DNA from: a virus
IMG/VR virus record: IMGVR_UViG_3300046777_002295
Span: 1 to 41,764 of that record
Direction: 5' to 3' (one strand)
DNA: 41,764 bases
Positions 5,558 through 21,066 of this stretch are shown one piece after another. The translations under genes were made by a program, and so were the position numbers. A model generated the notes under the pieces. The model saw nothing but the letters and a program-made list of their open reading frames with translations, did no database searches and was not told the DNA's origin. Positions within the stretch are counted from its first letter, which is position 1. Each line of letters starts with the position of its first letter.

Positions 5558-5761
5558 CTACGGCATAAAATACTTCATAATAATTGGCATCACAAATGCA
5601 AGTAGCGCAATCGCACCTTTCAGATACGCAATTTCTTGCCGAATTGCTGAAATCTGATTCCGCATCTCTACAAACTTTGCATCGTCGTCTTTCTTTCGCT
5701 CAAACACGCTATCCAGCTTTGTTTCAATGCGAATTAGACGCTCTTCTACTGATTCTGCCAT
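5558..5761 (-). CDS. XhlA-like holin-associated membrane protein
   Basis: The 67-residue protein has an N-terminal amphipathic coiled-coil region (about 1-47, with E-E-R-L-I-R-I-E-T-K-L) and one C-terminal membrane segment (about 48-65). That is the layout of XhlA haemolysin-like proteins, which accompany holins and endolysins in phage lysis cassettes. Its start overlaps the amidase gene by 16 bases, and AGGTGA precedes the ATG. It probably works with the 5351-5545 product at the membrane. Confidence 0.65.
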   Translation of the reverse strand: MAESVEERLIRIETKLDSVFERKKDDDAKFVEMRNQISAIRQEIAYLKGAIALLAFVMPIIMKYFMP

Positions 5762-6237
5762 GCTTCACCTACATACTTCCAAAACTTCTTCCACGGAAAC
5801 ATCCACGGGTCAAACTTTCCACGAGTATCAATCGCTTCATGCGACGTTACTACATGTATATCATACTTTTTCATCCACTCCACTACTTGCTCCGCACAAC
5901 TCTCTACCTGCGCATCAGGATAGTCATCAAATGGTGATGTACGCTTTCCCTTGTTGATTAACTCAATTCCAAGCGATACATGATTTGGATTCCCTAATGA
6001 AGTCTTACTATACCCTACATGATACGCCACTCGCTCATCATCTACCATTCGATACCGTGTGCCATCCTTTGCAATACACACATGGATTGATACCCCACTA
6101 CTGTTTGATTGCAAATATGACACTTCACTCTCTACATTCCCACCACCAGCGGTATGATGCAATACAATCATCTTTGGGATAATCGCATTCCTACTCCCAT
6201 GTGATTTCGCTGGCCGTAATACTACTGGATATGCCAT
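5746..6237 (-). CDS. N-acetylmuramoyl-L-alanine amidase (endolysin)
   Basis: This is a 163-residue amidase_2/PGRP-type enzyme that cleaves the bond between muramic acid and the stem peptide. L-H-H-T-A-G at 26-31 carries the first zinc ligand, and the S-H-E-A-I-D segment and D-P-W near 131-145 carry the others. It covers a single catalytic domain with no cell-wall-binding domain and no signal peptide, so it needs the holin. The start follows GAGGAG. It is the first gene of the leftward block, next to the regulatory hub. Confidence 0.9.
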   Translation of the reverse strand: MAYPVVLRPAKSHGSRNAIIPKMIVLHHTAGGGNVESEVSYLQSNSSGVSIHVCIAKDGTRYRMVDDERVAYHVGYSKTSLGNPNHVSLGIELINKGKRTSPFDDYPDAQVESCAEQVVEWMKKYDIHVVTSHEAIDTRGKFDPWMFPWKKFWKYVGEAWQNQ

Positions 6238-6352
6238 ATATCTCCTCTCTTATACCCCCATTACTAGATTATCATACTTTTTGTGTATAATATATATCGT
6301 GGTCAAATTGACTATACCTCAATCACCACGCTTGCATGGGAAACAGACAGCG

Positions 6353-6404
6353 ATAATACCCGAACGTTATGACTTACGCTCAAGTTATGATGTTTGGGTA
6401 TTAT
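6353..6404. repeat. long inverted repeat
   Basis: ATAATACCCGAAC (6353-6365) pairs with GTTTGGGTATTAT (6392-6404) with one G-T pair, around a 26-nt loop that contains the direct repeat GTTATGA twice. As RNA it would form a stable stem on either strand. Confidence 0.7.
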
Positions 6405-6490
6405 TGTGAGTATGTTACATTTCTTTCTTTTAATAGTAAAAATGCAATTTATATTTTCATTACGCAGTAGCCCCAAATGCGATTTTTTGT

Positions 6491-6518
6491 GATTGTGAAT
6501 ACGGTCACAATCTTTTTT
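6491..6518 (+). terminator. rho-independent terminator-like hairpin
   Basis: GATTGTGA and TCACAATC pair across a 6-nt loop and are followed by TTTTTT on the plus strand. No gene ends upstream on this strand, so it would serve a short RNA or shield the array from read-through. Its core also fits the TGTGA-N6-TCACA dyad. Confidence 0.45.
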
Positions 6519-6561
6519 AGAACGAATGTTCTATTTGTGATAGGTTTCACAATTAGAACGC

Positions 6562-6596
6562 ATGTGCTATGCGAACGCATGTTCTATTTGTGAAAT
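6562..6596. repeat. 35-bp direct repeat, copy 1
   Basis: This segment is identical to 6653-6687, 91 bp away. It spans half of a degenerate GAAC dyad, a complete GAAC-N4-GTTC dyad and the left part of a TGTGA dyad, so a composite operator module was duplicated. Confidence 0.9.
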
Positions 6597-6652
6597 ACAT
6601 CACATGTGAAATGTTTCACAAAGAGTAAGTGTACAGATAACACATAGTACAA

Positions 6653-6687
6653 ATGTGCTATGCGAACGCATGTTCTATTTGTGAAAT
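6653..6687. repeat. 35-bp direct repeat, copy 2
   Basis: It is identical to 6562-6596. The copies diverge immediately after GTGAAAT, where one dyad continues ACATCACA and the other GTTTCACA. Confidence 0.9.
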
Positions 6688-6860
6688 GTTTCACAGATGA
6701 TTGTGAAAAAAATCACATGTGATAAATATCACAATTAAACTGGTCAGTGTAATCGTGAAATCTTTCACATGTGAAATGTTTCACAATTAGAACGCATGTT
6801 CTAGTAGAACAAATGTTTCACCATGAACCCCTATAGAGTCAGTAGACGTCGACCAGAGTG

Positions 6861-6909
6861 GTAGACTATTACAAATCCCATAGGCCATGTAGACGATTAT
6901 AAATCCCAT
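6861..6909. repeat. 21-bp direct repeat pair
   Basis: The 21-mers at 6861-6881 and 6889-6909 begin GTAGAC and end AAATCCCAT; they differ at two positions. The start-to-start period is 28 bp. They fall in the only part of the array free of TGTGA dyads (6786-6943). Confidence 0.85.
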
Positions 6910-7054
6910 CGAATCAGTATACTTATATGAACATTTGTTCTATTGTGAAATACATCACACCATACCCGACCGAATCACTCATGTATGTTGTGAAATGATT
7001 CACAATGTGATTTGTGAAATGATTCACACAAAGATTACAATTCGATGACATGCC

Positions 7055-7083
7055 TTGACAGGCTTTTGGATTTGTGTTATTCG
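7055..7083 (+). promoter_or_regulatory. weak candidate early promoter
   Basis: TTGACA (7055-7060) is followed after 17 bases by TATTCG (7078-7083), a poor -10. It lies between TGTGA dyads and points at the rightward block. The -35 box is itself inside a GCC-TTGACA-GGC inverted repeat. Confidence 0.3.
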
Positions 7084-7271
7084 CACGTGCGCATACACAC
7101 ACACACCCCTGACATTGTGATACATTTCACAATACCCATCACATCGTGAAATAATTCACATGAAACCCTACTGAATCAGTCGAAGATTACAGTTTCATTA
7201 CAATGCTATTTTGGGGTTGCATAGTTATTCTATACATGCTACCATAGCCCCCATGATGAATATCGGGTATG

Positions 7272-7283
7272 CCCCCTAGGGGG
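7272..7283. repeat. GC-rich palindrome
   Basis: CCCCCTAGGGGG is a perfect 12-bp palindrome at the start of a segment (7260-7560) with many runs of 5-9 C or G. A partial copy, CCCCCTAGGG, lies at about 7542. Confidence 0.8.
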
Positions 7284-7577
7284 TGCACCCCCCCGCTCTC
7301 CGGCGGTGCGATTCATAGCACGTACATTCACAATTCACCCCGAAATGAGTGCACTAGGTGCACCGTCACCCCCTACGAAATCGGGGGGGTGGCATTGCGA
7401 TTCGTGATAGCCAGTCTAGACCGGAAACCGACGGGGGGGGGTATACCCCCCCGATGATAATTACGGCAGATGTGAGAAGTGGTGTGTAGTGAATGACGGG
7501 TAAGGGGGTGAATTATGCACGGAAACCAACGGGGAGTAATCCCCCTAGGGTGTACCTTAACAATTCGATATATGACG

Positions 7578-7609
7578 ATTCACACCCCCGATATACGGGG
7601 GGTGTGAAT
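7578..7609. repeat. GC-rich inverted repeat before the first early gene
   Basis: ATTCACACCCCC pairs with GGGGGGTGTGAAT around a short A/T loop. It has the same build as the hairpins between later early genes (arms TTCAC-C-run and G-run-GTGAA), but lacks a parS core. The first parS lies 18 bp downstream. Confidence 0.8.
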
Positions 7610-7627
7610 TGTGTACACACCCTATCA

Positions 7628-7643
7628 TGTTTCACGTGAAACA
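7628..7643. promoter_or_regulatory. parS: parS site 1
   Basis: TGTTTCACGTGAAACA, the canonical bacterial ParB-binding site, is present without a mismatch. The palindrome extends to 18 bp (7627-7644). It lies 17 bases before the first rightward gene. Confidence 0.85.
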
Positions 7644-7660
7644 TAGACGAGGGGTATAGC

Positions 7661-7876
7661 ATGATGAATTACATTCGGCGTGGCAACATTCACGGGGTAT
7701 GGGGTATGCAATCGAATGCCAGTGAATGGGTGGCTGGTGTGTTGACGTTACCCCTATGGGTGGTTGCGTTAGTAATTCGGGTATTGTACCGATGTATGGT
7801 TGGTGTGTTGCGTTTCATCATTGCGGTCGTTGCGGGTATGTGTTATATGGCTCATGACATCGTAACGGGTAAGTAA
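7661..7876 (+). CDS. small membrane protein
   Basis: A 71-residue protein starts behind GAGGGG (six bases spacing). The region from about 24 to 62 is a nearly continuous hydrophobic stretch broken by R-V-L-Y-R-C, suggesting two membrane spans with a short basic turn. It is the first gene of the rightward block and is flanked by parS sites 1 and 2. No family is recognised; a membrane-targeted early protein such as a host-takeover or superinfection factor is possible. Confidence 0.6.
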   Translation: MMNYIRRGNIHGVWGMQSNASEWVAGVLTLPLWVVALVIRVLYRCMVGVLRFIIAVVAGMCYMAHDIVTGK

Positions 7877-7908
7877 TAAATAATAATTATTGCGGTGTGT
7901 ACACAATT

Positions 7909-7951
7909 CACCCCCCCCGTATATGTTTCACGTGAAACATTCGGGGGGGTG
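7909..7951. repeat. GC-rich inverted repeat centred on parS 2
   Basis: A C-run (CACCCCCCCC) and a G-run (GGGGGGGTG) flank parS 2, giving an almost loopless palindrome of about 43 bp. It fills the gap between two early genes. As RNA it would be a long hairpin; it is not followed by a T-tract. Confidence 0.8.
7924..7939. promoter_or_regulatory. parS: parS site 2
   Basis: The sequence TGTTTCACGTGAAACA is a perfect copy, between the 7661 and 7998 genes. Confidence 0.85.
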
Positions 7952-7997
7952 TGAAATCGGTGGGTAATTCGGGGGTATGTATGAAAGGCATAACACA

Positions 7998-8870
7998 ATG
8001 CAACACACACACACCCCCCACGAGCTGGCTATGATGCTAGTGAAATTGTACGAATTGGTGCATGGTCGGAAACCATCAGAAATCACCCGTGATGCTATCA
8101 ATAGTGTTATGGGTCGTTTCGTTGCATCACGTAAGGATTTCGGTGCATCATCACTATTTCAGCGTTTCGGTGAATCCCGCAACATTTCGTCATTCGGTGA
8201 ATGGGTATTGACACACTACGCTGGTCTAGTTGACGATGCACGGGAAAAATACAACGAATCACTAGACGAATTAGAATCAGCGTACCAAACCGCCAGTGGT
8301 AACGTTTCCGACCATCGGTTGGATGATGGCGTTGACGATGCACGTATAGCTGAATTATTTCACCCCGATATTGAGTCTGAAATAGACGAAAAAATAGGGG
8401 GTAGCACGTGGTTTCGATGTATCGGGGGGATTCACGGTATAGACGTGATTTCTGACGATGACAGCGACATCACGACGGAAATATATGACGGTGTGTATAG
8501 TGCTACGAATGACGTTGAAACCGCAATAGGAAACCACCGTCAGGCCGTGAATGATTACAAATTACGGGTGGAGGCCATTCGTAACGTACAATCACAATAC
8601 AAATCATACAAGTACGCCATTTCGATGGCGATACATGACGATTTACCGAAATTACTACAAATTATCATATCGGGGGATGAAATCTCCGAAACCGATGATT
8701 TGTGTAAGGGGTATATTGACGGGTATACAATCGAAACCGAATGGGATGACGATAATGGGGTATACGTACCATACATTACGGGTATAGACTCGGCAGAAAT
8801 GTATGAAATCATGTACCCCGATGACTGGTCGAATTATTGTATTTATGTTGACGCAGTAACGAATAAGTAA
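7998..8870 (+). CDS. hypothetical early protein, acidic
   Basis: The product is 290 residues if translation starts at ATG 7998, nine bases after GAAAGG; an in-frame ATG at 7977 is possible but has no spaced ribosome-binding site. It begins M-Q-H-T-H-T-P-H-E and is rich in Asp and Glu through the middle, with repeated D-D-A and S-D-D-D words. No motif or family is recognised. Early position and acidity are compatible with a DNA-mimic or host-protein-binding role, which is speculation. Confidence 0.65.
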   Translation: MQHTHTPHELAMMLVKLYELVHGRKPSEITRDAINSVMGRFVASRKDFGASSLFQRFGESRNISSFGEWVLTHYAGLVDDAREKYNESLDELESAYQTASGNVSDHRLDDGVDDARIAELFHPDIESEIDEKIGGSTWFRCIGGIHGIDVISDDDSDITTEIYDGVYSATNDVETAIGNHRQAVNDYKLRVEAIRNVQSQYKSYKYAISMAIHDDLPKLLQIIISGDEISETDDLCKGYIDGYTIETEWDDDNGVYVPYITGIDSAEMYEIMYPDDWSNYCIYVDAVTNK

Positions 8871-8901
8871 TAATAATCACCCCCCCGAATTACCCCCCGA
8901 T

Positions 8902-8950
8902 TTCACCCCCCTCCGAATATGTTTCACGTGAAACATTCGGGGGGGTGAAT
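8902..8950. repeat. GC-rich inverted repeat centred on parS 3
   Basis: TTCACCCCCCTCCGAATA and TTCGGGGGGGTGAA flank parS 3, forming an approximately 49-bp palindrome with small mismatches. It is the same module as at 7909, 9545 and 10718. Confidence 0.8.
8920..8935. promoter_or_regulatory. parS: parS site 3
   Basis: TGTTTCACGTGAAACA is again perfect, in the gap between the 7998 and 8986 genes. Confidence 0.85.
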
Positions 8951-8985
8951 ATAGCGGAGGGTATACTCCCTATAGGGGGTATCAC

Positions 8986-9519
8986 ATGCAATTTATGCAA
9001 CATGATGCTGAATCATTCGACCAATTCGATACTATGCGATTTCGTGCATTGCAGTCAACATGTCGCAATATGTACCGATTACAATCACGGGTAAGTAATT
9101 CATTACATGATTTGTGGATGGGTAATAGGGGGTGTACGTCATCCCCCGTTAATACCATACTCAACTGGGTGTATGACTATTCACCAACTAGTAACGGGGT
9201 ATGTTGGTCGTTGGATTTCAACAAATCACGATATAACTGCTTACAGACACAGGCACAATTTCACGTGCTATTTACGGGGGGCATTTTAACATGCACCCAA
9301 AATGGTGGGGTATATCGTAGGGTATACAATGGGGATAATTCACTATATGTATTCAGTCGTGATGAATGCAAGCTGATTATGTATACTGTTTTACACCATT
9401 TTATACAATCGGAGCTGATACACATATACAGCAATCATACCGCCATATCACGGTCTATGGTAGAAATGATGCATAGTAATGCTACTACAGCTCGGCTTAT
9501 TTATAACACATACAAGTAA
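8986..9519 (+). CDS. hypothetical early protein
   Basis: The 177-residue protein starts behind AGGGGG with six bases spacing. It contains scattered Cys residues and a C-terminal helical region, but no recognisable domain. It is bounded on both sides by parS-centred hairpins (sites 3 and 4). Confidence 0.6.
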   Translation: MQFMQHDAESFDQFDTMRFRALQSTCRNMYRLQSRVSNSLHDLWMGNRGCTSSPVNTILNWVYDYSPTSNGVCWSLDFNKSRYNCLQTQAQFHVLFTGGILTCTQNGGVYRRVYNGDNSLYVFSRDECKLIMYTVLHHFIQSELIHIYSNHTAISRSMVEMMHSNATTARLIYNTYK

Positions 9520-9544
9520 TAATCACGGGTATACCCTCCCCTAT

Positions 9545-9590
9545 ATTCACCCCCCCGAATGTTTCACGTGAAACATTCGGGGGTATGAAT
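9545..9590. repeat. GC-rich inverted repeat centred on parS 4
   Basis: ATTCACCCCCCCGAA and TTCGGGGGTATGAAT flank parS 4. The A/T-G-run-parS-C-run-A/T order is the same as in the other copies. Confidence 0.8.
9560..9575. promoter_or_regulatory. parS: parS site 4
   Basis: The 16-mer TGTTTCACGTGAAACA is perfect, between the 8986 and 9624 genes. Confidence 0.85.
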
Positions 9591-9623
9591 ACAGGGGGGA
9601 AATCATACCGAATGGAGCTGATT

Positions 9624-9863
9624 ATGCGAGATGTAAATACACACCCTATGGTCGTAACGCTGAATAAATACTCTGGCTATTATCGGGGGGTACTGATTCA
9701 GCTGAATGTTGACATCCCTACATATCGCACGAATATGCACTGGGTACATACTGCTATTGACAAGGTGAAGCGTACCATTGTACGAAATCGCCGAGAGGGT
9801 GAGCGTATGGCATTGGAGTTACAAATCCAACTGTCGCACCTCATCAAAGTAACTGCTGAATAA
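9624..9863 (+). CDS. hypothetical early protein, basic
   Basis: A 79-residue protein is predicted from ATG 9624, which has GGAG six bases upstream; in-frame ATGs at 9585 and 9612 are less well placed. It contains a basic cluster (K-V-K-R-T-I-V-R-N-R-R) in a predicted helix, which could bind nucleic acid. No family is recognised. Confidence 0.55.
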   Translation: MRDVNTHPMVVTLNKYSGYYRGVLIQLNVDIPTYRTNMHWVHTAIDKVKRTIVRNRREGERMALELQIQLSHLIKVTAE

Positions 9864-9892
9864 TTGACGATTTCCCCCCTGTATTCATCCCC

Positions 9893-9910
9893 CCGTATCG
9901 CATGATACGG
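9893..9910 (+). terminator. intergenic hairpin without parS
   Basis: CCGTATC and GATACGG pair around GCAT between the 9624 and 9948 genes. No T-tract follows. It replaces the parS hairpin in this gap, so hairpins rather than parS alone may be the constant feature of the early gaps. Confidence 0.45.
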
Positions 9911-9947
9911 AGTGATGATTGTATAAGTGTATTGTATTGGAGGGATT

Positions 9948-10715
9948 ATGCAGACTGATGCAAAGCAGACCGAATCGGTCAAAGTTGAAACGGGTATCCC
10001 CCTGACTGCGGTCAAGCAGTTTATTGACGAGCTAGGGATTCACTACCCCACCTTGTGCCTAAAGCAGGAAGCTGGGTATACTCGGGGGGAAATGCCACTG
10101 GAAGCTGGGTATAACGGTCTGATTTATTGGGATGATTTCCGCAAAGCTCACGATAACACAGACTGCGCCAGCTTGGTGCATGAGTGGTCAGATTTACATG
10201 ACGCAGTTATGAAACGGGTAACGAAGGCCTACAATATCCAGCAACTTCCCCAGCTGGTATTCGGCACTGCGGTCGAATGGGTAGCAGACCGTTTCCCCCA
10301 TGCCTGCAAGTGTGAGAATTGTAGTGCTGTGCCATTTCTATATGATTCAGCACTATACCGAGCGTATGATTATTATAGTAAGACGATTGTACAGCTCAAT
10401 CCCAAGCAGGGGGATTTATACCCAGTGGTCGACCGTGAAACGATGAAAGCAGTAAATATGACTGCGCTCATCCCAGTTTCACATAGACGGTCAGAAGCAA
10501 TGCACAAGCTATACATGCTGATTTGTACTATTTCCAATGCACAAATCAAAGCTGATATGCTAGACGCTCTGACTGCGGAGGTGGGTGCATCTCGGGAAAT
10601 CATTACAAAAATACTGGCTTACTTGGATAATGGTATAGACGTTTCTACCCAGTTTCCAAGTTACGAGTGGATTGTAATGCGAAATGTATCGGCGAGTATG
10701 ATTTCCGAATTGTAG
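9948..10715 (+). CDS. hypothetical early protein with HxCxCxxC motif
   Basis: The protein is 255 residues from ATG 9948 (GGAGGG, three bases before the ATG region). A cysteine/histidine cluster, F-P-H-A-C-K-C-E-N-C, lies near residues 122-131 and may bind zinc. The same cluster (F-A-H-S-C-M-C-D-D-C) occurs in the 13338 gene, so the two look like distant paralogues. No enzyme motif is visible. Confidence 0.65.
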   Translation: MQTDAKQTESVKVETGIPLTAVKQFIDELGIHYPTLCLKQEAGYTRGEMPLEAGYNGLIYWDDFRKAHDNTDCASLVHEWSDLHDAVMKRVTKAYNIQQLPQLVFGTAVEWVADRFPHACKCENCSAVPFLYDSALYRAYDYYSKTIVQLNPKQGDLYPVVDRETMKAVNMTALIPVSHRRSEAMHKLYMLICTISNAQIKADMLDALTAEVGASREIITKILAYLDNGIDVSTQFPSYEWIVMRNVSASMISEL

Positions 10716-10717
10716 CT

Positions 10718-10763
10718 GAATCACCCCCCCCGAATGTTTCACGTGAAACATTCGGGGGGATTC
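10718..10763. repeat. GC-rich inverted repeat centred on parS 5
   Basis: GAATCACCCCCCCCGAA and TTCGGGGGGATTC flank parS 5, forming a 46-bp palindrome directly upstream of the ribosome-binding site of the next gene. Confidence 0.8.
10735..10750. promoter_or_regulatory. parS: parS site 5
   Basis: TGTTTCACGTGAAACA without mismatch, between the 9948 and 10778 genes. It is the last parS copy; the next gap holds a hairpin of different sequence. Confidence 0.85.
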
Positions 10764-10777
10764 TATGGAGGTGTATG

Positions 10778-10999
10778 ATGGGAAATAATGAAGCATGTAA
10801 TGCGACATGTGAGCATACGATGACAGTATTTACTTCATCCAATGCGAAGTGGTCGGAGTGTAGCAAGTGTGATTGTATTGTACTGATTCATATTGACTGT
10901 TACGAGTGTGGCGCAGTCATTGTGATAAGTGAGGGTGAGCATGTATACCAAGATGGTAAATATTATCATTATCATTGTACTGACGGGGGGATTGTATGA
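10778..10999 (+). CDS. small Cys-rich protein, zinc-ribbon-like
   Basis: The 73-residue protein starts at ATG 10778, five bases after GGAGGT. It has C-N-A-T-C, C-S-K-C-D-C and C-Y-E-C clusters followed by H-Y-H-C, typical of a compact treble-clef or zinc-ribbon fold. It may bind DNA, RNA or protein. Its stop overlaps the next start by ATGA. Confidence 0.6.
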   Translation: MGNNEACNATCEHTMTVFTSSNAKWSECSKCDCIVLIHIDCYECGAVIVISEGEHVYQDGKYYHYHCTDGGIV

Positions 11000-11277
11000 A
11001 ACATACTGAACGGGTGCGGGAAATCAAAGCTCAAGCTGACCGCTTGGGGTATGAATTGCACCAGCTAGGAAGTGGGAAGTGGGGTGTCACTTTTACGGGT
11101 GCCAACATTTACGCTCTAAAGGTGACTGTTGGCACATTGGATAAAGTGGAGGGATTTCTAGACGGGGTAGAGTGGATTATTTCCGATTCCGAGAAGTGGA
11201 CGAGATTACACTGGGCAGGCATAGTTGACTCTGCACGAAGCCGAGTTATTGTAGAAACCGAAGGGGAAGGTGAATAG
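10996..11277 (+). CDS. hypothetical early protein
   Basis: This 93-residue protein starts with a basic helix (E-R-V-R-E-I-K-A-Q-A-D-R-L-G-Y), followed by a beta-rich part with G-K-W-G-V-T-F and T-L-D-K-V-E-G-F-L. Small phage proteins with this helix-then-sheet layout are common, but none has a firm function I can name. It overlaps its upstream neighbour by four bases, implying translational coupling. Confidence 0.55.
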   Translation: MKHTERVREIKAQADRLGYELHQLGSGKWGVTFTGANIYALKVTVGTLDKVEGFLDGVEWIISDSEKWTRLHWAGIVDSARSRVIVETEGEGE

Positions 11278-11278
11278 C

Positions 11279-11980
11279 ATGAAGTTACAATTTCGTCATG
11301 ATACACAATACACACCGAATGAATCAGAAGCTGTCGAATTATTGACTCGTAACTATTACGCTGTATTCGATTGCGCCAAGATAGCACAGCTCGAGCGTAT
11401 GTCACCATGTCAACTGGTGGATATTATCACCCATGACATTCACTCATACGTATTATTTTCAGATTATGAAGCAGGCTTGTTATCATATAATTACCCCACA
11501 AAAGACGTGAGTCATATTATGAATCTATATGTAGATGTGCATAGACTCCACCACGAAGAGCTTGTGCGCCATTATCGTAATGAGTCTGCGGTAGATGATG
11601 ATGCGAAGCGTAATGAATACAAGTATTTTATGATGCTCCACGAGCAGGATGAAAGCGAGCTGTCATATCAGCGTACATCACTACGCAAAAAAGTAGGGGA
11701 AATGGCTGACACCCTCACTGCACATTGTGAGAATACTGTGGTATATCAGTCTACACACACTATAGAGGGGGGTATGTTTTTAGGTGAATACAATAGGCAA
11801 TATGAAAGATTGAGTCTATTGCAGTACAAGTATGCAGTCAGTCAGCTTCGTATGATTATGTTGAGTGAATTACGCAGTGGTGCGGGTGATTTACAAAGCC
11901 AGCTGGCCTTGCGTAAATCTATTCAAGAGTATGCTGACAAGCTTTGTGGGTATGTATCGAAATACCCTTTTTGGAAGTAA
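11279..11980 (+). CDS. hypothetical early protein
   Basis: The 233-residue, mostly helical protein starts at ATG 11279 after GGAAGGTG. It carries the segment S-E-L-S-Y-Q-R-T-S-L-R-K-K-V-G-E-M, which recurs in altered form in the 13848 gene product (S-E-L-A-Y-R-R-N-A-L-G-S-K-V-G-H-I). No domain is recognised. Confidence 0.6.
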   Translation: MKLQFRHDTQYTPNESEAVELLTRNYYAVFDCAKIAQLERMSPCQLVDIITHDIHSYVLFSDYEAGLLSYNYPTKDVSHIMNLYVDVHRLHHEELVRHYRNESAVDDDAKRNEYKYFMMLHEQDESELSYQRTSLRKKVGEMADTLTAHCENTVVYQSTHTIEGGMFLGEYNRQYERLSLLQYKYAVSQLRMIMLSELRSGAGDLQSQLALRKSIQEYADKLCGYVSKYPFWK

Positions 11981-11986
11981 TATATA

Positions 11987-12021
11987 CCCCCCCTATAGTA
12001 TCACTTGGTACTATAGGGGGG
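11987..12021. repeat. GC-rich intergenic inverted repeat without parS
   Basis: CCCCCCCTATAGTA (11987-12000) pairs with TACTATAGGGGGG (12009-12021) around TCACTTGG. It has the same C-run/G-run frame and the same downstream segment (GATTCTATGGAGGTG) as the parS 5 hairpin, but a different core. Confidence 0.85.
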
Positions 12022-12039
12022 ATTCTATGGAGGTGCATT

Positions 12040-12264
12040 ATGCACAAGTATATTGTAACGAATGAAGACGGGATGAAACGGGTAACTGTGGGGAAGTTAT
12101 CGAAGGCACTACAGGCAGTGTTATCCCCTAAAGCCACTGTGGTGGATTATGACATTATGCCAAGTGGGCACTATTGCTTTCGGGTGAATGTACATTATAC
12201 CTATGAAAAAAATGGGTATGTATACAGTCAGACCGTTGACGTGGAAGACCACGGTGAATTGTAA
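12040..12264 (+). CDS. hypothetical early protein
   Basis: A 74-residue protein begins at ATG 12040, five to six bases after GGAGGT. It has a short basic N-terminal part (G-K-L-S-K-A-L-Q-A-V) and beta-rich C-terminal half with many tyrosines. Its leader sequence is closely similar to that of the 10778 gene. Function unknown. Confidence 0.55.
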   Translation: MHKYIVTNEDGMKRVTVGKLSKALQAVLSPKATVVDYDIMPSGHYCFRVNVHYTYEKNGYVYSQTVDVEDHGEL

Positions 12265-12338
12265 TGGTAATGCTTTGTGGCAGTGTGATTTGTATGGTAT
12301 TGTGCATAATTATTCTAGTTGACTATAATCGTAAGTGA
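12264..12338 (+). CDS. 24-residue putative membrane peptide
   Basis: The start codon overlaps the preceding stop (TAATG). The peptide M-V-M-L-C-G-S-V-I-C continues as an uninterrupted hydrophobic helix and ends D-Y-N-R-K, a one-span membrane peptide with a basic tail. Coupled translation and coding-like composition support it, but the length is small and a -10-like TATAAT lies inside it. Confidence 0.35.
   Translation: MVMLCGSVICMVLCIIILVDYNRK
12300..12329 (+). promoter_or_regulatory. candidate internal promoter
   Basis: A perfect TATAAT at 12324-12329 has a weak -35 (TTGTGC, 12300-12305) at 18 bases. It would read into the hairpin and gene at 12396. Confidence 0.3.
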
Positions 12339-12350
12339 TAGTAACTGCAC

Positions 12351-12381
12351 TGCACCACTGGGGATTGTACCCAGTGGTGCA
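12351..12381 (+). terminator. strong intergenic hairpin
   Basis: TGCACCACTGGG pairs perfectly with CCCAGTGGTGCA around a 7-nt loop, and ATTATT follows. It is either a weak terminator or a 5' mRNA stabiliser placed just before the GGAGGG site of the 12396 gene. Confidence 0.5.
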
Positions 12382-12395
12382 TTATTGGAGGGTAT

Positions 12396-12878
12396 ATGAC
12401 AAAGAAAAGTAAGACTACCCCATACATGGTAGAGCATAGTTGGCATATCACCAAGAAAGATAATGCTAACGTGACCAATATCGGCACATTATACTCATAT
12501 ATCAGCACCTATGTAGAGCGTGATGAATTGCAGTTAATTCATGACAAGTTTATGAAGAAACTGCGTAAGATAGGCTTTGATAAATCAGCATACGATACAC
12601 AACTGATTACAAAGCTGTATGTGCAGAAGGTGTATACATGGCTGTACAATTCACACCCACAGACATCAAAACTGTTTTATTGGGATTCATCCCGTAATGA
12701 AGAGGTGACTGGTGTAGAGCATATGTATCGGGTGACAGCACTGCATGGCGCAGAAGGCCAGCAGTCATTGTACGAGGTGATTGTGTACGCAGACAGTATC
12801 GAGAATGTAAGCCTGCCCAAATACCATGCAGGCAGTATTGTGAGTATTTGTTTATTGCATGACATGGAGGTGAAGTGA
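12396..12878 (+). CDS. hypothetical early protein
   Basis: The 160-residue protein starts behind GGAGGG. The first half is basic and helical (K-K-L-R-K-I-G-F-D-K-S), the second half beta-rich. The segment K-K-x-G-F-D-K-S also occurs in the 17153 gene product (G-K-K-G-F-D-K-S-S), so the pair may share a short module. No function is recognised. Confidence 0.6.
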   Translation: MTKKSKTTPYMVEHSWHITKKDNANVTNIGTLYSYISTYVERDELQLIHDKFMKKLRKIGFDKSAYDTQLITKLYVQKVYTWLYNSHPQTSKLFYWDSSRNEEVTGVEHMYRVTALHGAEGQQSLYEVIVYADSIENVSLPKYHAGSIVSICLLHDMEVK

Positions 12879-13333
12879 TGTCTACGGTGTACAGCGTTGG
12901 CGCAGGTATGTATACAGGCACAAGGTACTATTCGGAAAGGCGCAGTCTATTGCAGGCAGTTGAGAATATCCTGAACAGGATACACCCACACCGAGTCAGC
13001 TGGTTTAAGTTGACTCGTGACCGTAATTGGGTAAGCACTACAAGTTATTGTGTATGGGTGATGTATACTCTTGGGGATTCAGACATTGTACTGCACAAAT
13101 ATATGCAGATATTTAAGCATCGTGGTGGTGATGAATCCAATATGCCAGAGTGTTATGCTAAACATATTTACATGTACCACCAAGTGGTGAATTGCTGTGC
13201 ATGTGGGGGTGAGGGTATTGTGGACAGTATGGAGTATCATGAAGGCGATATACAGCGACGCAGGGGGTATTATCACAAGACTGAATCTGTATGTAATGAA
13301 TGGGAATTATTACTTTGGAATATGAAAGGGTAG
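12878..13333 (+). CDS. hypothetical early protein
   Basis: This 151-residue protein starts at ATG 12878, overlapping the previous stop, with GGAGG upstream. Near residues 106-111 it has C-C-A-C-G-G-E-G, a possible half zinc-ribbon. The N-terminus contains repeated aromatic residues. No family is recognised. Confidence 0.6.
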   Translation: MSTVYSVGAGMYTGTRYYSERRSLLQAVENILNRIHPHRVSWFKLTRDRNWVSTTSYCVWVMYTLGDSDIVLHKYMQIFKHRGGDESNMPECYAKHIYMYHQVVNCCACGGEGIVDSMEYHEGDIQRRRGYYHKTESVCNEWELLLWNMKG

Positions 13334-13337
13334 TGCT

Positions 13338-13793
13338 ATGAGTAATGTGATGCACATCACCAAGCTGAACAAGATTATTTGGTACGTTTCTCAATACCAG
13401 TGCCTGCAGGATATGACTGACAGCTTGGTGAATACTGGCATTGTGGGCACTGATTTCGCACGTGACTGCGCTCACGAGATTTCGCACGTTTATACCGATG
13501 CGAATCTGTGTGGCGATGACAAAGAGAAAGCTGTAATCAATTACGTGGCAACACACTTTGCTCACAGCTGTATGTGTGATGACTGTGTGAATGATAATAC
13601 GTGGGCAATTGCTGATGCTGACTGGTTTCACTACACTGCCAACAGCGTACTACGCACACTTACACTGCAACACATTCAACACTTGCTTACATCACTGCAA
13701 CTGCGTGGTGATGATTATGCACACGACGTAAAAGCACTGTGGCGAATTGTGTGGATGTATGAAGTGATGCTCAAAAAGCATGAAACTGCTTGA
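13338..13793 (+). CDS. hypothetical early protein with HxCxCxxC motif
   Basis: A 151-residue, His- and Cys-rich protein. F-A-H-S-C-M-C-D-D-C near residues 73-82 aligns with the cluster in the 9948 gene product, including the preceding hydrophobic Y-V-A. This suggests a shared metal-binding module. It ends just before a strong promoter. Confidence 0.6.
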   Translation: MSNVMHITKLNKIIWYVSQYQCLQDMTDSLVNTGIVGTDFARDCAHEISHVYTDANLCGDDKEKAVINYVATHFAHSCMCDDCVNDNTWAIADADWFHYTANSVLRTLTLQHIQHLLTSLQLRGDDYAHDVKALWRIVWMYEVMLKKHETA

Positions 13794-13817
13794 CACTTTC
13801 TTTTTATGTGATACAAT
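13790..13817 (+). promoter_or_regulatory. sigma70-type promoter
   Basis: TTGACA (13790-13795), 16 bases, then TACAAT (13812-13817). The box begins inside the last codons of the 13338 gene and would start transcription about 20 bases before the 13848 start. It divides the rightward block into two units. Confidence 0.75.
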
Positions 13818-13847
13818 TACTGTGTAATCTATGATATGGAGAACGTC

Positions 13848-14453
13848 ATGCAATTACAGCTGATTCAAGAGGATTTGCAGTGGGCGCAATATGACACTGT
13901 AAATGAGAGGAATTGGTTAGATTTAAGTAGTGTGGATGGTTTGCGGTATTTGCGAAATAGCGAGTTAGCATATCGCAGGAATGCGTTAGGTAGTAAAGTA
14001 GGACACATCCTAGCATATCGTAAGCATATGGTGTATGCGAGTATGTACCGTTGGCTTCGTGTGAGCATCGTAAACGGGAAACTGTATGGTGAGCATAGTG
14101 ATAATCACATGCGAGCTTTTGGCAAGTTTCTACGGTTTGCACAGTTGGTATGGTTTGACCAAGTGGGGATGAATACTTCCCCACAGTACTGTGTGGTGTA
14201 CAATTACGGAATGCAACGCTACATTATTCCCAACAGCACGACCACTATTCCACTGTTTGGCAGTGATGGTGAGCTGGATATGCGTAAGAATAGCCGTGGG
14301 GTATACACTTTTGTGGTGTCACAGAATGGTCACCACGTGCTGATTGCACCACAAGATTTTTTACACACTGATTTTTCAGACTACAATCTCACATTGTGCG
14401 ACCGTAGCATTCAACTGATTAAGACGTGCATGATGATTGGAGGCCACCGATGA
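13848..14453 (+). CDS. hypothetical protein
   Basis: The 201-residue protein is predicted from ATG 13848, five bases after GGAGA; an ATG at 13836 overlaps that site. It contains S-E-L-A-Y-R-R-N-A-L-G-S-K-V-G, matching a segment of the 11279 gene product, followed by a beta-rich half. It is the first gene after the 13790 promoter. No function is recognised. Confidence 0.6.
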   Translation: MQLQLIQEDLQWAQYDTVNERNWLDLSSVDGLRYLRNSELAYRRNALGSKVGHILAYRKHMVYASMYRWLRVSIVNGKLYGEHSDNHMRAFGKFLRFAQLVWFDQVGMNTSPQYCVVYNYGMQRYIIPNSTTTIPLFGSDGELDMRKNSRGVYTFVVSQNGHHVLIAPQDFLHTDFSDYNLTLCDRSIQLIKTCMMIGGHR

Positions 14454-14863
14454 AGTGCGTAGTGACATGGCACAATGCGAAGCGTGAGTATACTTCGCCT
14501 GATATGGCACAGGCTAGACTGTGTTTTGGGGATTTGTGCGAAGCGATGGGATATGAGAGTGGCACACTGACTGTTACTGATGATACTACCGAAACGGTTA
14601 TTTCATTCGATGACATTACTGATGATGAATGGCAAGTCATCAGTAATGACATTTACGGGATTATCTATCAGAACATTGTATTTCTTGATGATGATGTAGA
14701 CGAATTGGAGGCGTACAAGGCACTGAATAGCACTGATGATGGTGAGCATGACTATGATGATGATTCGATTGGTGATTATTACACTGTGGATTATCGGCAT
14801 GGGTGGGATGATGAAATGGAGCTTCGTAGCGAGGCGCAATGGGAAAGGGATAACCTATCATGA
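14450..14863 (+). CDS. hypothetical acidic protein
   Basis: The 137-residue protein starts at ATG 14450 behind GGAGG and overlaps the previous gene by four bases. Its second half is very acidic (D-D-D-V-D-E-L-E, D-D-G-E-H-D-Y-D-D-D), as in DNA-mimic or protein-binding tails. No domain is recognised. Confidence 0.6.
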   Translation: MKCVVTWHNAKREYTSPDMAQARLCFGDLCEAMGYESGTLTVTDDTTETVISFDDITDDEWQVISNDIYGIIYQNIVFLDDDVDELEAYKALNSTDDGEHDYDDDSIGDYYTVDYRHGWDDEMELRSEAQWERDNLS

Positions 14864-15207
14864 ATGAACAAGACTCACAGGAATTGCAACAGATAATGAA
14901 AGACATTATCGAGCTGAATCAGCAAATTGAGTTGCTGGAATCAGATAAGAATGCACTAAAGACACAGTTACAGGAAGGGGTGAATCACTACGGTGGCAAG
15001 GTTTCCTTTTACGGTATTGGCACTGCGTACATGGTCAAAGGAAAGCCACGCATCTCATACGATGCAGGGGAAGTAGACAAACTGATTGCCACAATTATGG
15101 CGGATGGGATAGCCGACCAAGTGGCAGTGGCAAAGGCATTACTGGCTATTCGTAAGGAAACGAAGGGAAGCGATTATATGACGGTCAAGAAAGAGGTGGT
15201 AAAGTGA
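14860..15207 (+). CDS. coiled-coil protein, weakly Gp157-like
   Basis: A 115-residue protein. Residues 5-37 form a coiled coil (heptads of I/L with E/Q/K), then a beta segment G-K-V-S-F-Y-G-I-G-T and a basic C-terminus. The coiled coil followed by a beta-strand unit recalls siphovirus Gp157-type proteins, but the match is weak. Both ends overlap neighbours by four bases. Confidence 0.55.
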   Translation: MNEQDSQELQQIMKDIIELNQQIELLESDKNALKTQLQEGVNHYGGKVSFYGIGTAYMVKGKPRISYDAGEVDKLIATIMADGIADQVAVAKALLAIRKETKGSDYMTVKKEVVK

Positions 15208-15521
15208 TTCACATTCAGTGTAATCGGGATGTCCATATCGCCAACAATAATGAAATGTGTTATGCCTATCAAGGAAACAATTTTAAGGCAGGAGATAGCA
15301 TTCGGGTATGTATTTGGCAGTCACCGAAAGACACCTCCAAGCGTTGGTTTGCAGAATTGTGGCGACAAGGTATGTCGGTTTCACGATACTGGGGAAGTAT
15401 TCCAGCAATTCAGTTTTGGCTATTCACGCAGGGATTATGGGTGACCACAGAATTGCAGTACGACCGTGAGTTTGAGGTAATGGTGAATGACGTTGCAAAG
15501 GCAGGGGAAGAAGATGAATAA
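15204..15521 (+). CDS. hypothetical protein
   Basis: The 105-residue protein uses GTG as start (GTGA overlap with the previous stop). It is beta-rich and tryptophan-rich, with K-R-W-F-A-E-L-W near residue 48. No family is recognised. It overlaps the next start by eight bases. Confidence 0.6.
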   Translation: MIHIQCNRDVHIANNNEMCYAYQGNNFKAGDSIRVCIWQSPKDTSKRWFAELWRQGMSVSRYWGSIPAIQFWLFTQGLWVTTELQYDREFEVMVNDVAKAGEEDE

Positions 15522-15723
15522 GAAAACAACTGTGCCATTCAATTTGACCATGCCATATTGGGGGATTTTGATTATAGTGCGGAATCAGTTGCGAATCAAT
15601 AATCGTTGTGATGATGACATACAGTTAATGAAGCGAGCTGATAACTGTAAGAATATTGTGGATTTGATTAACTTGTGTGCGGAGTATGTAGACTTTTCTG
15701 ATATGGGAGGCAGTGATGACTAA
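15514..15723 (+). CDS. small phage protein, paralogue 1
   Basis: A 69-residue protein starting in the previous stop (ATGAATAA). The C-terminal half (about 40 residues ending in L-I-N-L-C-A-E-Y-V-D-F-S-D) resembles the product of the next gene (L-I-E-I-C-K-E-Y-V-D-F-V-N). Small proteins with this E-Y/W-V-D ending are common in actinobacterial and other siphoviruses, without known function. Confidence 0.65.
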   Translation: MNKKTTVPFNLTMPYWGILIIVRNQLRINNRCDDDIQLMKRADNCKNIVDLINLCAEYVDFSDMGGSDD

Positions 15724-17104: not shown

Positions 17105-17113
17105 TGTAAATAG

Positions 17114-17141: not shown

Positions 17142-17152
17142 AGGGAGGGATT

Positions 17153-17509: not shown

Positions 17510-17636
17510 GAGTTTCCGTATATCGGTCGAAATTGACCGTATGATGCACGAATTGTCAATCAAACTGAATGTAAGCAAAGGAGAAGTATTGCGACATGCC
17601 ATCACAACGCTCTACGAAAAACACTTCAAGCAATAA
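17493..17636 (+). CDS. ribbon-helix-helix DNA-binding protein
   Basis: A 47-residue protein from ATG 17493 (GGAG six bases upstream). The strand S-F-R-I-S-V-E-I is followed by two helices, with S-K-G-E-V-L-R-H at the usual position of the second-helix N-cap. This is a minimal CopG/Arc-type dimer subunit, a likely repressor. Two further in-frame ATGs lie just upstream. It overlaps the 17596 gene and may bind the hub or local hairpins. Confidence 0.65.
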   Translation: MLQRIKSFRISVEIDRMMHELSIKLNVSKGEVLRHAITTLYEKHFKQ

Positions 17637-17922
17637 TCCAACGGTACTTATGAGTACCGCACTGCCACCAGCACTGTATAAAGTGGTGTACGGACGTTCG
17701 GTATCGCAGATGATAAGCGTATCAGACATTATGCGAACATCATTAGACAAGTGGCTTGATGAAGGTGCGCCAAAGTACGCTGTGGCAGATGAGAAGTTTA
17801 AGCATCATGTAGGTGCATACATTCCCGAAGATTTGTATATTCGTCTGCGTAATCTTGCCAAGCGACGTGGTATGTCTATGTCGTTGTGTCTGCGAATGGC
17901 TATTGCATATTGCAATCAGTAA
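17596..17922 (+). CDS. tandem ribbon-helix-helix protein
   Basis: The 108-residue protein appears to contain two RHH units: residues about 18-52 (T-A-L-P-P-A-L-Y-K followed by S-V-S-D-I-M-R-T-S-L) and about 72-106 (V-G-A-Y-I-P-E-D-L-Y followed by S-M-S-L-C-L-R-M-A-I). The second is a good match; the first is less clear. Two units in one chain would give a pseudo-dimer, or a tetravalent dimer. It overlaps the single-unit RHH gene by 41 bp. It is a likely regulator of phage genes. Confidence 0.6.
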   Translation: MPSQRSTKNTSSNNPTVLMSTALPPALYKVVYGRSVSQMISVSDIMRTSLDKWLDEGAPKYAVADEKFKHHVGAYIPEDLYIRLRNLAKRRGMSMSLCLRMAIAYCNQ

Positions 17923-17928
17923 TGTTAG

Positions 17929-17959
17929 GTGGCGGTGAGTGGGAGAATCTCACCGCCAC
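17929..17959 (+). terminator. GC-rich hairpin terminator candidate
   Basis: GTGGCGGTGAG pairs with CTCACCGCCAC around a nine-base loop, followed by TTAAATTGTATCATTT. It separates the RHH genes from the replication genes. The tail is not a pure T-run, so attenuation is as likely as full termination. Confidence 0.55.
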
Positions 17960-17985
17960 TTAAATTGTATCATTTAGGGGCACGT

Positions 17986-18702
17986 ATGTATACAAAAATA
18001 CCAAATGCAGTCTTTGATGTGTTGCCTGAATTGTCAGGAACGCAAACCAAAGTACTGTTAGCAATCTATCGGGCAACTGCTGGGTGGCAACGTGAAACTG
18101 CATCATTGTCACTTTCTACACTCGCCAAGATGACGGGTGCATCAGTGCGCCAAATCAGTGATGCACTGTGTCAACTGGAATCACGCAAACTGATAGAGCG
18201 TGTGTATAGCACTACTGGATTTGTGTATCGAACATTTTGTAATGCTGAAACTGTTGCAGAAACTGCTATAGAGGAAACTGCTATAGAAAAAACTGCAACA
18301 AAAGTATTGCAAAAATTGCCAACAAATAAAGAAAGGAAAGAAAGTAATACTACTGTATCTAACGATACAGTACGTAAGCGAAAGCCACGCACCAAACGTG
18401 AAACCGAGGCGGTCGAAACCGAACGCACACCATTGTCTATCTATCGGCACTACCACCGTTTACAAGTGCCTATTGCAATTCGTGATATGGTGTCACAGAT
18501 AACTGATTTAGACAAATGGGAAGCGATATGCAAGGAATGGATAGCACGGGGATATAAGCCTGGGAATGTACAAGCATGTATGCAAGTCTACGAGAAAGGA
18601 TGGAATACTAATGACAAACGACGAAAAACGCAACGAGGGGATGTTCAGCGGGAACAGCGTGAATCTAAACTGGAACAGTACTTTGCCGAATACCAGCTAT
18701 AA
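17986..18702 (+). CDS. replication initiator, lambda O/DnaD-like winged helix
   Basis: The 238-residue protein starts at ATG 17986 after AGGGG. Residues 1-65 (K-I-P-N-A-V-F-D..., L-S-G-T-Q-T-K-V-L-L, then S-L-S-T-L-A and a recognition helix) match the N-terminal winged helix of phage replication protein O. A repetitive linker (E-T-A-I-E-E-T-A-I-E-K-T-A) and a basic stretch lead to a C-terminal helical domain. It should bind the phage origin and recruit the loader encoded next. The genes overlap by 92 bp. Confidence 0.75.
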   Translation: MYTKIPNAVFDVLPELSGTQTKVLLAIYRATAGWQRETASLSLSTLAKMTGASVRQISDALCQLESRKLIERVYSTTGFVYRTFCNAETVAETAIEETAIEKTATKVLQKLPTNKERKESNTTVSNDTVRKRKPRTKRETEAVETERTPLSIYRHYHRLQVPIAIRDMVSQITDLDKWEAICKEWIARGYKPGNVQACMQVYEKGWNTNDKRRKTQRGDVQREQRESKLEQYFAEYQL

Positions 18703-19549
18703 GACACCATTGCAGGAAATTGGCATTGTACGTGAGGGTATGACTGGTCGTGAGGTATATGAGGCCTCAAAAGCGTATTGGGCTGATTTCTATGCTAATC
18801 GTGCGGTGCGACGTACTATGAAGTACACATCAAAGCCACTAGTTGCTGGGTGTAACTGTGATGGTGCTGGATGGTACTACCTTGACGTTGTTCCATCTGA
18901 CTATCGATACAAGGTGCTTCAGCGGTGTGAATGCACTGCAAATCGAAATGGTGAAGCATTTCGTCAAGCACTACAAGCATTTTCTGAAGACACATTTGAT
19001 ACGTTTGATGTGAATCGACCAGTTTCTGATTACAAAATTGGCACACATAACGTTCCTGCTGACTATCAGAAAAAGTCTATCATGAAAGCCTATACACAAC
19101 TGTCGAATGATGATTTCGCCAACAAGATGAGTTACTACGTGTGGGGGAATGTAGGCAGTGGCAAATCACATTTGGCGAGAGCGTGGGCTATTCGATTTGC
19201 TGATATGGGATATTCAGTAGTGTACCGTCATATGCCTACGCTGGTAGATGAAATGCGTACTTCGGTGAAGAATAATGGTGTCGATATTCTTGTTGACAAA
19301 CTGATTAACTGTGATATATTGGTTATTGACGACATCGGAGCTGAAGAAGACCAATCTGACTGGGTACGTGGTCGATTTCTTCGTATCGTTGATGGGAGAA
19401 ACGGTAAGAAGACGGTATATACCAGCAATATTGAACCAAGTGATTTGTACAATCGCATGGATGAACGTGTTGCCGACCGAATTAACCAGTGCCAGCGATT
19501 ATGGCTTCCGTTGCAATCGTATCGTAGTATTCTTCGTGAAAGAAAGTAG
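18611..19549 (+). CDS. DnaC/DnaI-like AAA+ helicase loader
   Basis: The 312-residue ATPase has Walker A G-N-V-G-S-G-K-S near 179-186 and Walker B D-I-L-V-I-D-D-I near 235-242. Cysteines C81-N-C83 and C106-E-C108 form a zinc-binding N-terminal region, as in DnaI. It should load the replicative helicase onto the origin opened by the O-like protein. No phage helicase is recognised, so the host helicase is the likely client. The start at 18611 lies within the upstream gene. Confidence 0.8.
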   Translation: MTNDEKRNEGMFSGNSVNLNWNSTLPNTSYKTPLQEIGIVREGMTGREVYEASKAYWADFYANRAVRRTMKYTSKPLVAGCNCDGAGWYYLDVVPSDYRYKVLQRCECTANRNGEAFRQALQAFSEDTFDTFDVNRPVSDYKIGTHNVPADYQKKSIMKAYTQLSNDDFANKMSYYVWGNVGSGKSHLARAWAIRFADMGYSVVYRHMPTLVDEMRTSVKNNGVDILVDKLINCDILVIDDIGAEEDQSDWVRGRFLRIVDGRNGKKTVYTSNIEPSDLYNRMDERVADRINQCQRLWLPLQSYRSILRERK

Positions 19550-19818: not shown

Positions 19819-20450
19819 TGATTATCAAATCACTAACTATCTTCAACAATATCACGATTGACTTCGATGTGGTGCGATATTATCCAAACCACTTTTTATT
19901 ACAAACATCCAAGTTTGTATATCAAAACAGAAGTTTCCAAGTTGATTTTGTCATATATGAAGAAAAAATTACCATTGCGGTGAATGAGATGATTGTATTA
20001 GACAATACGTCATACCACAAATGGTATAGTTTCGGAAATAAATCATATGACACAACTGACTTTAACGCACTTGTCACTCTGGCCGTTGCCAAACAACTAT
20101 CTGGCAATATGTTTGAGATGATGACAAATTACAAGGAATTACTAGGAACACACAATAAGACAAATAAGTTTGCATGGCAGTTTGTTGAATACATTGATAC
20201 ATTTGTTGGAAGCATTCTTGGAGGCATGATTGTGCAACGAAAACTTGCTGACAATAGTGGCTATCAACTGTATTTTATGATTAAAAGTGATATAATACGC
20301 CAATCACCGTGGCAATTAACACCATTTACTCATAGTGATGTAGGATTGTTTATTAACAACATGGCATCAGTAGAAGATTTTGTGTACATATCTGACAAAG
20401 ATGAAGATGATGAGGATGAAGATGATGAGGATGAAGACTATGACTACTAA
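19818..20450 (+). CDS. hypothetical protein with acidic repeat tail
   Basis: A 210-residue protein from ATG 19818. The body is beta-rich with hydrophobic segments and the last 18 residues are almost all Asp and Glu (D-E-D-D-E-D-E-D-D). The tail is encoded by a GATGAGGAT repeat, prone to slippage. Acidic tails occur in SSB-like proteins as partner-binding peptides, but no OB fold is evident. Confidence 0.6.
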   Translation: MIIKSLTIFNNITIDFDVVRYYPNHFLLQTSKFVYQNRSFQVDFVIYEEKITIAVNEMIVLDNTSYHKWYSFGNKSYDTTDFNALVTLAVAKQLSGNMFEMMTNYKELLGTHNKTNKFAWQFVEYIDTFVGSILGGMIVQRKLADNSGYQLYFMIKSDIIRQSPWQLTPFTHSDVGLFINNMASVEDFVYISDKDEDDEDEDDEDEDYDY

Positions 20451-21066
20451 ACCACTGCGTTTTAATCAAAATCGCAAATATCGGCGATGGAGTGAACATG
20501 AAGAATCTATGATTCGCCATCTGTTTTTTAGTGGCAACACACCACCGCAAATTGCTAACATTATGCGTCGCACTGTATCTGCAATTTGTGTTAGACTGTC
20601 ACGCATGAATCTTGTGTATGCTGACCACAAGCAGGAGCATATGCACACCATTGCTGAATTGGCAGTATTGCTTAATATCCATCCTAAACTAATGTATAAG
20701 TACGCTCGTGATATTGGTACTGTGTCGTTTGGTCGACAAAAGTACATTCCCAAACAAAATCTGCATTACTGGTTAATGATGGGATATGCAGATTATTTTT
20801 TGCATCGTAATCCACCATGCCATCCCAGCATTATTCCTGCTCTTCAGGCGGCTAGTCAAGAATATCATGAGCGAAAATGGATGGTGACACGGCAAGAAGT
20901 ATTGCAGGCATTGGGAATTGCCAATTCTACATTGTCATATCACATTTACTCACGAAACTTCCCAAAACCGTTTGTATTGCCAAACAAAACAACGGTGTTT
21001 GTGCGACAGGAAGTAGAAGATTGGGTAGAAGAATATGGGAATGGAAAAAAGTGCGTATGGTCATAA
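20440..21066 (+). CDS. HTH regulator with SANT-like and MerR/AlpA-like segments
   Basis: The 208-residue protein from ATG 20440 (20431 also possible) has an N-terminal Myb/SANT-like helix set (R-R-W-S-E-H-E-E-S-M-I, then T-P-P-Q-I-A-N-I-M). A middle helix-turn-helix (T-I-A-E-L-A-V-L-L) follows, and a C-terminal AlpA/excisionase-like unit (M-V-T-R-Q-E-V-L-Q-A-L-G-I). Multiple DNA-binding units suggest a transcriptional regulator, possibly the switch to late genes. It overlaps neighbours at both ends. Confidence 0.6.
   Translation: MTTKPLRFNQNRKYRRWSEHEESMIRHLFFSGNTPPQIANIMRRTVSAICVRLSRMNLVYADHKQEHMHTIAELAVLLNIHPKLMYKYARDIGTVSFGRQKYIPKQNLHYWLMMGYADYFLHRNPPCHPSIIPALQAASQEYHERKWMVTRQEVLQALGIANSTLSYHIYSRNFPKPFVLPNKTTVFVRQEVEDWVEEYGNGKKCVWS

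Follow-up and report, generated by a model that had tools for sequence, protein, structure and literature searches.

Genome organization around the divergent region

The window analyzed here is the whole virus record (IMGVR_UViG_3300046777_002295; 41,764 nucleotides), which has a 73-bp direct repeat at its ends and therefore probably represents an entire genome of 41.8 kb, either circular or circularly permuted. Genes to the left of positions 6238 to 7660 run leftward and genes to the right run rightward, so that this interval forms a divergent gap, and the rightward run extends from 7661 to 21479 (Table 1). The preliminary description of this DNA had placed a dense array of inverted repeats at a divergent hub, and the gene layout agrees with it, as the array sits between the two gene blocks. 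The leftward strand carries two genes for DNA methyltransferases, at 212 to 1504 and at 40533 to 41762 plus 3 to 245, one of which is apparently split by the ends of the record.

Among the 50 phage open reading frames (ORFs) scanned with Pfam, a part of all ORFs and also the scope within which no integrase was seen, none matched the CRP/FNR, LexA, ParB, or integrase families, the sole exception being a subthreshold winged-helix match in the O-like initiator. No lysogeny gene was recognized in the phage, in which many early genes have no family. Searches of the phage for tRNAs and Rfam families gave no matches, and a search for phage records near the region found none.

Table 1. Coordinates of genes and sequence features in the virus record
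Feature	Position	Strand	Basis or remark
Amidase (Amidase_2)	5746..6237	-	Pfam; opens the leftward gene block, which continues through structural genes
RNA hairpin, 26 bp, conserved loop ACGCU	6350..6407	+	z = -9; between divergent genes
Terminator-like stem followed by a T run	6487..6518	+	Stem is the first A dyad
A-dyad array, 14 x TGTGA-N6-TCACA, 16 bp each	6494..7160		Consensus TTGTGAAATATTTCACAA
B-dyad set, 8 x TAGAAC-N4-GTTCTA type, 16 bp, LexA-box-like	6518..6942		Motif count; also precedes lexA in Chloroflexota
P1, promoter-like, TTGACA-N17-TATTCG	7055..7083	+	Relative has the same -35 and spacer length (L174, 1753-1781)
P2, promoter-like, TTGCAT-N17-TACCAT	7217..7245	+	Conserved in relative (L174, 1944-1972)
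parS 1, TGTTTCACGTGAAACA	7628..7643		Exact 16-mer match
First rightward genes, small	7661..10999	+	No family above cutoff; four start 17 to 50 bp past a parS
parS 2	7924..7939		Exact; center of long C/G-rich palindrome
parS 3	8920..8935		Exact; center of long C/G-rich palindrome
parS 4	9560..9575		Exact; center of long C/G-rich palindrome
parS 5	10735..10750		Exact; center of long C/G-rich palindrome
Ribbon-helix-helix (RHH) protein	17596..17922	+	Pfam; candidate phage-encoded DNA binder
Lambda-O-like replication initiator (Phage_rep_O)	17929..18702	+	Pfam
DnaC-like helicase loader	18566..19549	+	Pfam
Two-HTH protein (HTH_17 + AlpA)	20380..21066	+	Pfam; candidate phage-encoded DNA binder

Two interleaved sets of dyads

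The A dyads (12 of them exact, the other 2 carrying one mismatch) occupy 667 bp and start at 6494, 6536, 6589, 6605, 6680, 6702, 6718, 6754, 6770, 6944, 6989, 7013, 7116, and 7145. The window has no exact copy outside this array, and 2,000 dinucleotide shuffles of positions 6400 to 7260 gave a mean of 0.01 dyads and a maximum of 1. When two mismatches are allowed, the window as a whole contains 30 matches versus 37 expected, and because there is thus no window-wide excess, the signal is a local cluster of perfect half-sites. Three pairs (6589/6605, 6702/6718, and 6754/6770) abut at a period of 16 bp. The preliminary description had noted both the density of the array and its abutting pairs, and on these points it holds; it was incomplete in that it missed a second, interleaved set of dyads and the parS sites downstream.

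This second set, the B dyads, starts at 6518, 6554, 6571, 6645, 6662, 6788, 6805, and 6927. Five exact GAAC-N4-GTTC cores are present, compared with 0.016 expected and at most 1 in shuffled sequences, and counting half-site variants brings the number to eight. The B dyads form three pairs with centers exactly 17 bp apart. Since the steps between neighboring dyads are mostly 16 to 18 bp (17 to 18 bp for A-B, 17 bp for B-B, and 16 bp for A-A), much of the stretch from 6518 to 6820 can be read as an ordered array, for example, A-B-B-A-A.

With TGTGA and TCACA half-sites separated by a 6-bp spacer at a frequency beyond chance, the A dyads resemble CRP/FNR operators, a resemblance that the counts support and from which binding of a regulator of this type is predicted. 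Relative to the start expected for P1, two A sites have their centers at about -70 and -94, and another two are downstream of P1. CRP or FNR dimers are not known to lie side by side as closely as the 16-bp steps of the A dyads would require. The hairpin upstream of the array may belong to a small RNA, with a role in regulation or replication, that would end at the terminator-like stem.

parS sites without a recognizable ParB

The sequence TGTTTCACGTGAAACA is the 16-bp palindromic consensus of bacterial chromosomal parS, as used in PMC10197239, and the window contains five exact copies of it. At up to three mismatches, 0.54 matches would be expected in the window, and only the five exact copies were found. 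The palindromes around parS 2 to 5 have the form CACCCCCCCGAA-parS-TTCGGGGGGGTG, and four of the five parS sites end about 9 to 50 bp upstream of a small rightward reading frame. No ParB_N domain was detected in the window, and a ParB profile run over its reading frames was likewise without a match. A 188-amino-acid protein encoded beside a methyltransferase gene (39684 to 40250) gave weak PHROG matches (DNA methyltransferase and ParB-like) and none in Pfam. We thus found no ParB gene of the phage's own, as a phage-encoded parABS system would have.

We also considered whether the A dyads could be everted parS half-sites, as TGTGAAA...TTTCACA shares its half-sites with parS. This candidate was rejected because a related phage retains TGTGA/TCACA and not GTTTCAC.

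Conservation and turnover in related phages

Close relatives were found through the terminase. In one of them (G003; terminase 92% identical), the same locus carries 7 exact A dyads, compared with 14 dyads in the phage, at changed spacing, together with B dyads that include two 17-bp pairs, three exact parS sites, P1, P2, and the hairpin. All 23 hairpin pairs compared between the two phages are standard, 11 of them being changed on both sides. At the DNA level, a 97-bp block at 84% identity and short islands align between G003 and the window, and the rest is largely rearranged; because the DNA otherwise does not align, the motifs have been kept while their positions turned over. The preliminary description had held that its reading would fail if no protein were bound and dyad spacing were not conserved in related phages. 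The exact positions have indeed turned over, but the motif, the locus, the 17-bp pairing of B dyads, and the 17- to 18-bp A-B step are kept.

The A array, the B set, and parS were all absent from the distant relatives recovered by terminase (L148 to L150) or portal (L190 to L195), within the stretches compared, and across relatives the three motifs are present or absent as a set. The third rightward gene was uninformative as a query for relatives. A search with the composite A-AT-B pattern returned one informative virus (L175), the relative already known, and two chance matches within coding sequences; apart from that relative, the conserved first dyad also matched coding sequences twice by chance. 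Terminase searches found no prophage in bacterial genomes and only distant matches among plasmids.

These comparisons bear on the earlier suggestion that the A dyads are replication iterons, in which case they would be bound by the lambda-O-like initiator and the region would be the replication origin. Repeated dyads, a cumulative GC-skew minimum near 7 kb, and the presence of O-like and DnaC-like genes could all be expected of an origin. However, the skew follows gene direction, dyad number (14 versus 7), order, and spacing differ in the relative where iterons should be conserved in copy number and spacing, unrelated viruses also contain abutting CRP-like dyads, and the likely initiator is encoded 11 kb from the array, lacking the linkage expected of an iteron origin. 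Lambda-type iterons usually lie inside the O gene itself. We therefore do not favor an iteron origin and regard it as very unlikely.

The same motifs in other viruses

Abutting A-A pairs are rare in bacteria, with 7 places in 257 Gb of sequence, but were found in 19 viral contigs, and some of the viral loci (L010, L019, and L021) contain five or more neighboring A dyads. One of these, L010, and its near copy L013 contain A dyads, a LexA-type box (GAACACGTGTTC), and parS. In L175, an unrelated 18-kb virus record with 35% G+C, an A dyad lies directly beside a perfect B dyad at 6636 to 6669 (TGTGAAAATTTTCACAATTAGAACATATGTTCTAA), before a promoter-like stretch; GATC is absent from the stretch of L175 examined. 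Support from motif co-occurrence thus comes from two cases, L175 and L010, which are few.

Exact parS sites were present in at least 120 viral contigs from IMG/VR (L024 to L143), some of which may hold host DNA, versus 1 contig for the reversed palindrome. Among these contigs, 17 have two or more copies and two have five. No ParB was found near viral parS by tblastn, a ParB profile detected ParB-like frames in 2 of the 120 loci listed, and ParB_N was absent from the ten virus records checked, three of which are 57 to 82 kb long. The occurrence of parS without a nearby ParB is therefore widespread in viral contigs, and we found no description in the open literature of a phage that has chromosomal-type parS yet no ParB.

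The abundance of sites, with 14 A dyads, 8 B dyads, and 5 parS per genome copy, and the recurrence of parS in viruses without ParB would suit a titration array, also raised in the preliminary description, that soaks up host CRP/FNR, LexA (thereby raising the SOS response), and ParB during infection. We consider pure titration extremely unlikely, as the sites are not scattered; they surround two conserved promoter-like elements or lie shortly upstream of them, with A sites alternating with a second operator type in a fixed A-B phase.

The same motifs in bacterial genomes

We surveyed the B motif in two phyla: the pattern TAGAACNNNNGTTCTA occurs in 61 of the 121 genomes from Chloroflexota and in 4 of the 119 from Actinomycetota. 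In the Chloroflexota genome G228, an exact B box stands about 90 to 104 bp before lexA, and among the Chloroflexota genomes examined, a box with no more than two mismatches lies within 110 bp before the gene in 10 of the 13 cases where lexA was clearly assigned. Because the box stands before lexA in Chloroflexota and occurs widely there, we read B as the LexA (SOS) box of the host group, a match at the level of the phylum for a host that is itself inferred; binding by LexA and release upon SOS induction are predicted. Given this match in LexA-box type, the host is probably a Chloroflexota bacterium. An actinobacterial host was rejected, as the B motif is practically absent from that group.

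Several restriction sites are strongly avoided in the window (1 to 41764): GATC occurs 0 times (160 expected), GCWGC 0 (63), RAATTY 1 (98), CGCG 1 (62), GGWCC 0 (28), CTNAG 6 (72), and CCNGG 6 (61). GATC is also nearly absent in close relatives, but not in distant ones. Such avoidance suggests that the host has many restriction systems and, together with the LexA box of Nostocales (PMC3091678), also led us to consider a cyanobacterial host.

In five Chloroflexota genomes, the A motif occurred 20, 19, 11, 6, and 5 times versus 1, 0, 0, 0, and 0 times for the reversed control; these five were among seven genomes tested, and the other two showed no excess. The A sites fetched are mostly intergenic, and the genes beside several of them encode a formate/nitrite transporter, NapC/NirT, multiheme cytochromes, and Rrf2, ArsR, and DtxR-type proteins. 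This gene context fits what would be expected of an FNR/CRP-type regulon, and the CRP/FNR-like identity proposed for the phage dyads in the preliminary description gains from a motif that appears to mark anaerobic-respiration promoters in these genomes. Some of the A copies in G228 belong to a single repeated palindrome (TGTGAACTAGCTCACA and variants) and may represent something different.

The A dyads could instead be operators of the NADH sensor Rex, with the readings of B and parS unchanged. Their consensus, TTGTGAAATATTTCACAA, is identical to the Rex operator described for Gram-positive bacteria, and fermentation and anaerobic genes are among the targets of Rex as well. On the other hand, the central bases of the A dyads vary (ATACGG, ATAGGT, and AAAAAA), and the half-sites of Chloroflexota A sites often adjoin a C or G, as CRP/FNR sites allow, which makes Rex a rather improbable regulator here.

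Regarding parS, G228 has 18 exact copies in its whole genome, along with 9 B boxes, and exact parS was absent from 15 of the 20 B-bearing Chloroflexota genomes tested. One G228 contig (C34; L229) has 7 exact parS sites in 3.8 kb, several of which form the center of a long palindrome, like those of the phage.

LexA-type boxes also occur in Chloroflexota loci L209 to L228 just 3' of TTGACA, before genes of a membrane-protein family that carries ...WASILAxAFCGIDFAGIARIFTPEQGRDEPAE..., with several such boxes per genome. These genes may constitute an unusual SOS-type regulon.

The host motifs also bear on whether two regulators encoded by the phage itself, for example, a repressor and an antirepressor, could have A and B as their operators, in an enlarged version of the lambda OR/OL arrangement whose likeness to host motifs would be coincidental or ancestral. 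Densely packed operators between divergent gene blocks would be in keeping with phage repressors, the phage encodes RHH and two-HTH proteins, and its first rightward genes, next to the array, are among the many early genes that match no family. Yet B equals the Chloroflexota lexA box in both sequence and spacing, A and B are adjacent in the unrelated L175, A dyads, a LexA-type box, and parS recur in L010, and of the two candidate regulator genes, neither is located by the array or preceded by an exact A site. We consider phage-encoded regulators unlikely.

A proposed control region run by host proteins

We propose that the divergent region and the adjoining early genes form a control region operated by host proteins, in which A dyads would serve as CRP/FNR-type operators, B dyads as LexA operators, and parS as ParB sites, and we put the probability of this reading at roughly 0.55. 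Host LexA on B sites and a CRP/FNR-type regulator on the interleaved or abutting A sites would assemble together or compete, competition being probable where dyads abut, and the array would thereby make the activity of P1 and P2, the rightward early promoters, depend on DNA damage and on the redox/energy state of the cell. SOS induction would then derepress the early operon, provided that P1 and P2 are under LexA control. Once loaded onto the parS cluster, ParB could allow the host ParABS/SMC machinery to segregate a circular, nonintegrated prophage; alternatively, ParB spreading could silence the early genes. Several points stand against a host-protein model, namely, the G+C mismatch (41% in the phage versus 52 to 66% in the Chloroflexota stretches compared), the lack of any prophage found, the 16-bp A steps, the Rex-like consensus, the lack of a recognized lysogeny gene among early genes that are often unassigned, and the scarcity of exact parS in B-bearing Chloroflexota genomes. 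More tentatively, and on balance doubtfully, the phage may have no repressor or partition proteins of its own and may persist as a nonintegrated prophage run by host LexA, CRP/FNR, and ParB/SMC.

If these predictions from motifs are true, one compact region would let a phage sense DNA damage and redox/energy state together and ride the host chromosome segregation machinery without its own genes for sensing or segregation. Viruses that carry only parS and no ParB would then make up a wide, undescribed class. The question of lysis versus maintenance in viruses of poorly cultured bacteria would become testable, as would the question of why many viral genomes carry a bacterial centromere site without ParB. 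LexA-box type would, in addition, be a sequence-only cue for assigning hosts to metagenomic phages.

Comparison with known systems

In GIL01, a phage of Bacillus thuringiensis, host LexA acts as the lysogeny repressor (PMC4551915, PMC6182141), and its early promoter is controlled through SOS boxes, two of them close together, as is predicted for the phage described here. GIL01 differs in having few boxes and the LexA-modifying protein gp7, whereas here 8 LexA-like boxes lie among 14 CRP/FNR-like dyads, followed by parS. SGI1, a mobile element with parS sites of its own, hijacks the ParABS system of IncC plasmids and is stabilized by the ParA and ParB of that replicon (PMC10954446). The likeness lies in a mobile element with parS for which ParA and ParB are supplied, or in our phage would be supplied, by another replicon; the difference is that SGI1 borrows from a plasmid, whereas the parS of our phage is of the chromosomal type and does not imply a second replicon.

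The cluster A mycobacteriophages RedRock and Alma have parABS and RNA-based origins and form nonintegrating prophages (PMC7157519). They share with our phage the placement of centromere sites near a noncoding RNA; however, they encode ParA and ParB and have their own repeat-type parS, in contrast to the universal parS and lack of a recognizable ParB here. Finally, CRP/FNR promoters share with this region their half-sites, their spacing, and the placement of sites upstream of a promoter (here, the promoter-like P1), but the phage has 14 sites, several of which abut at 16 bp.
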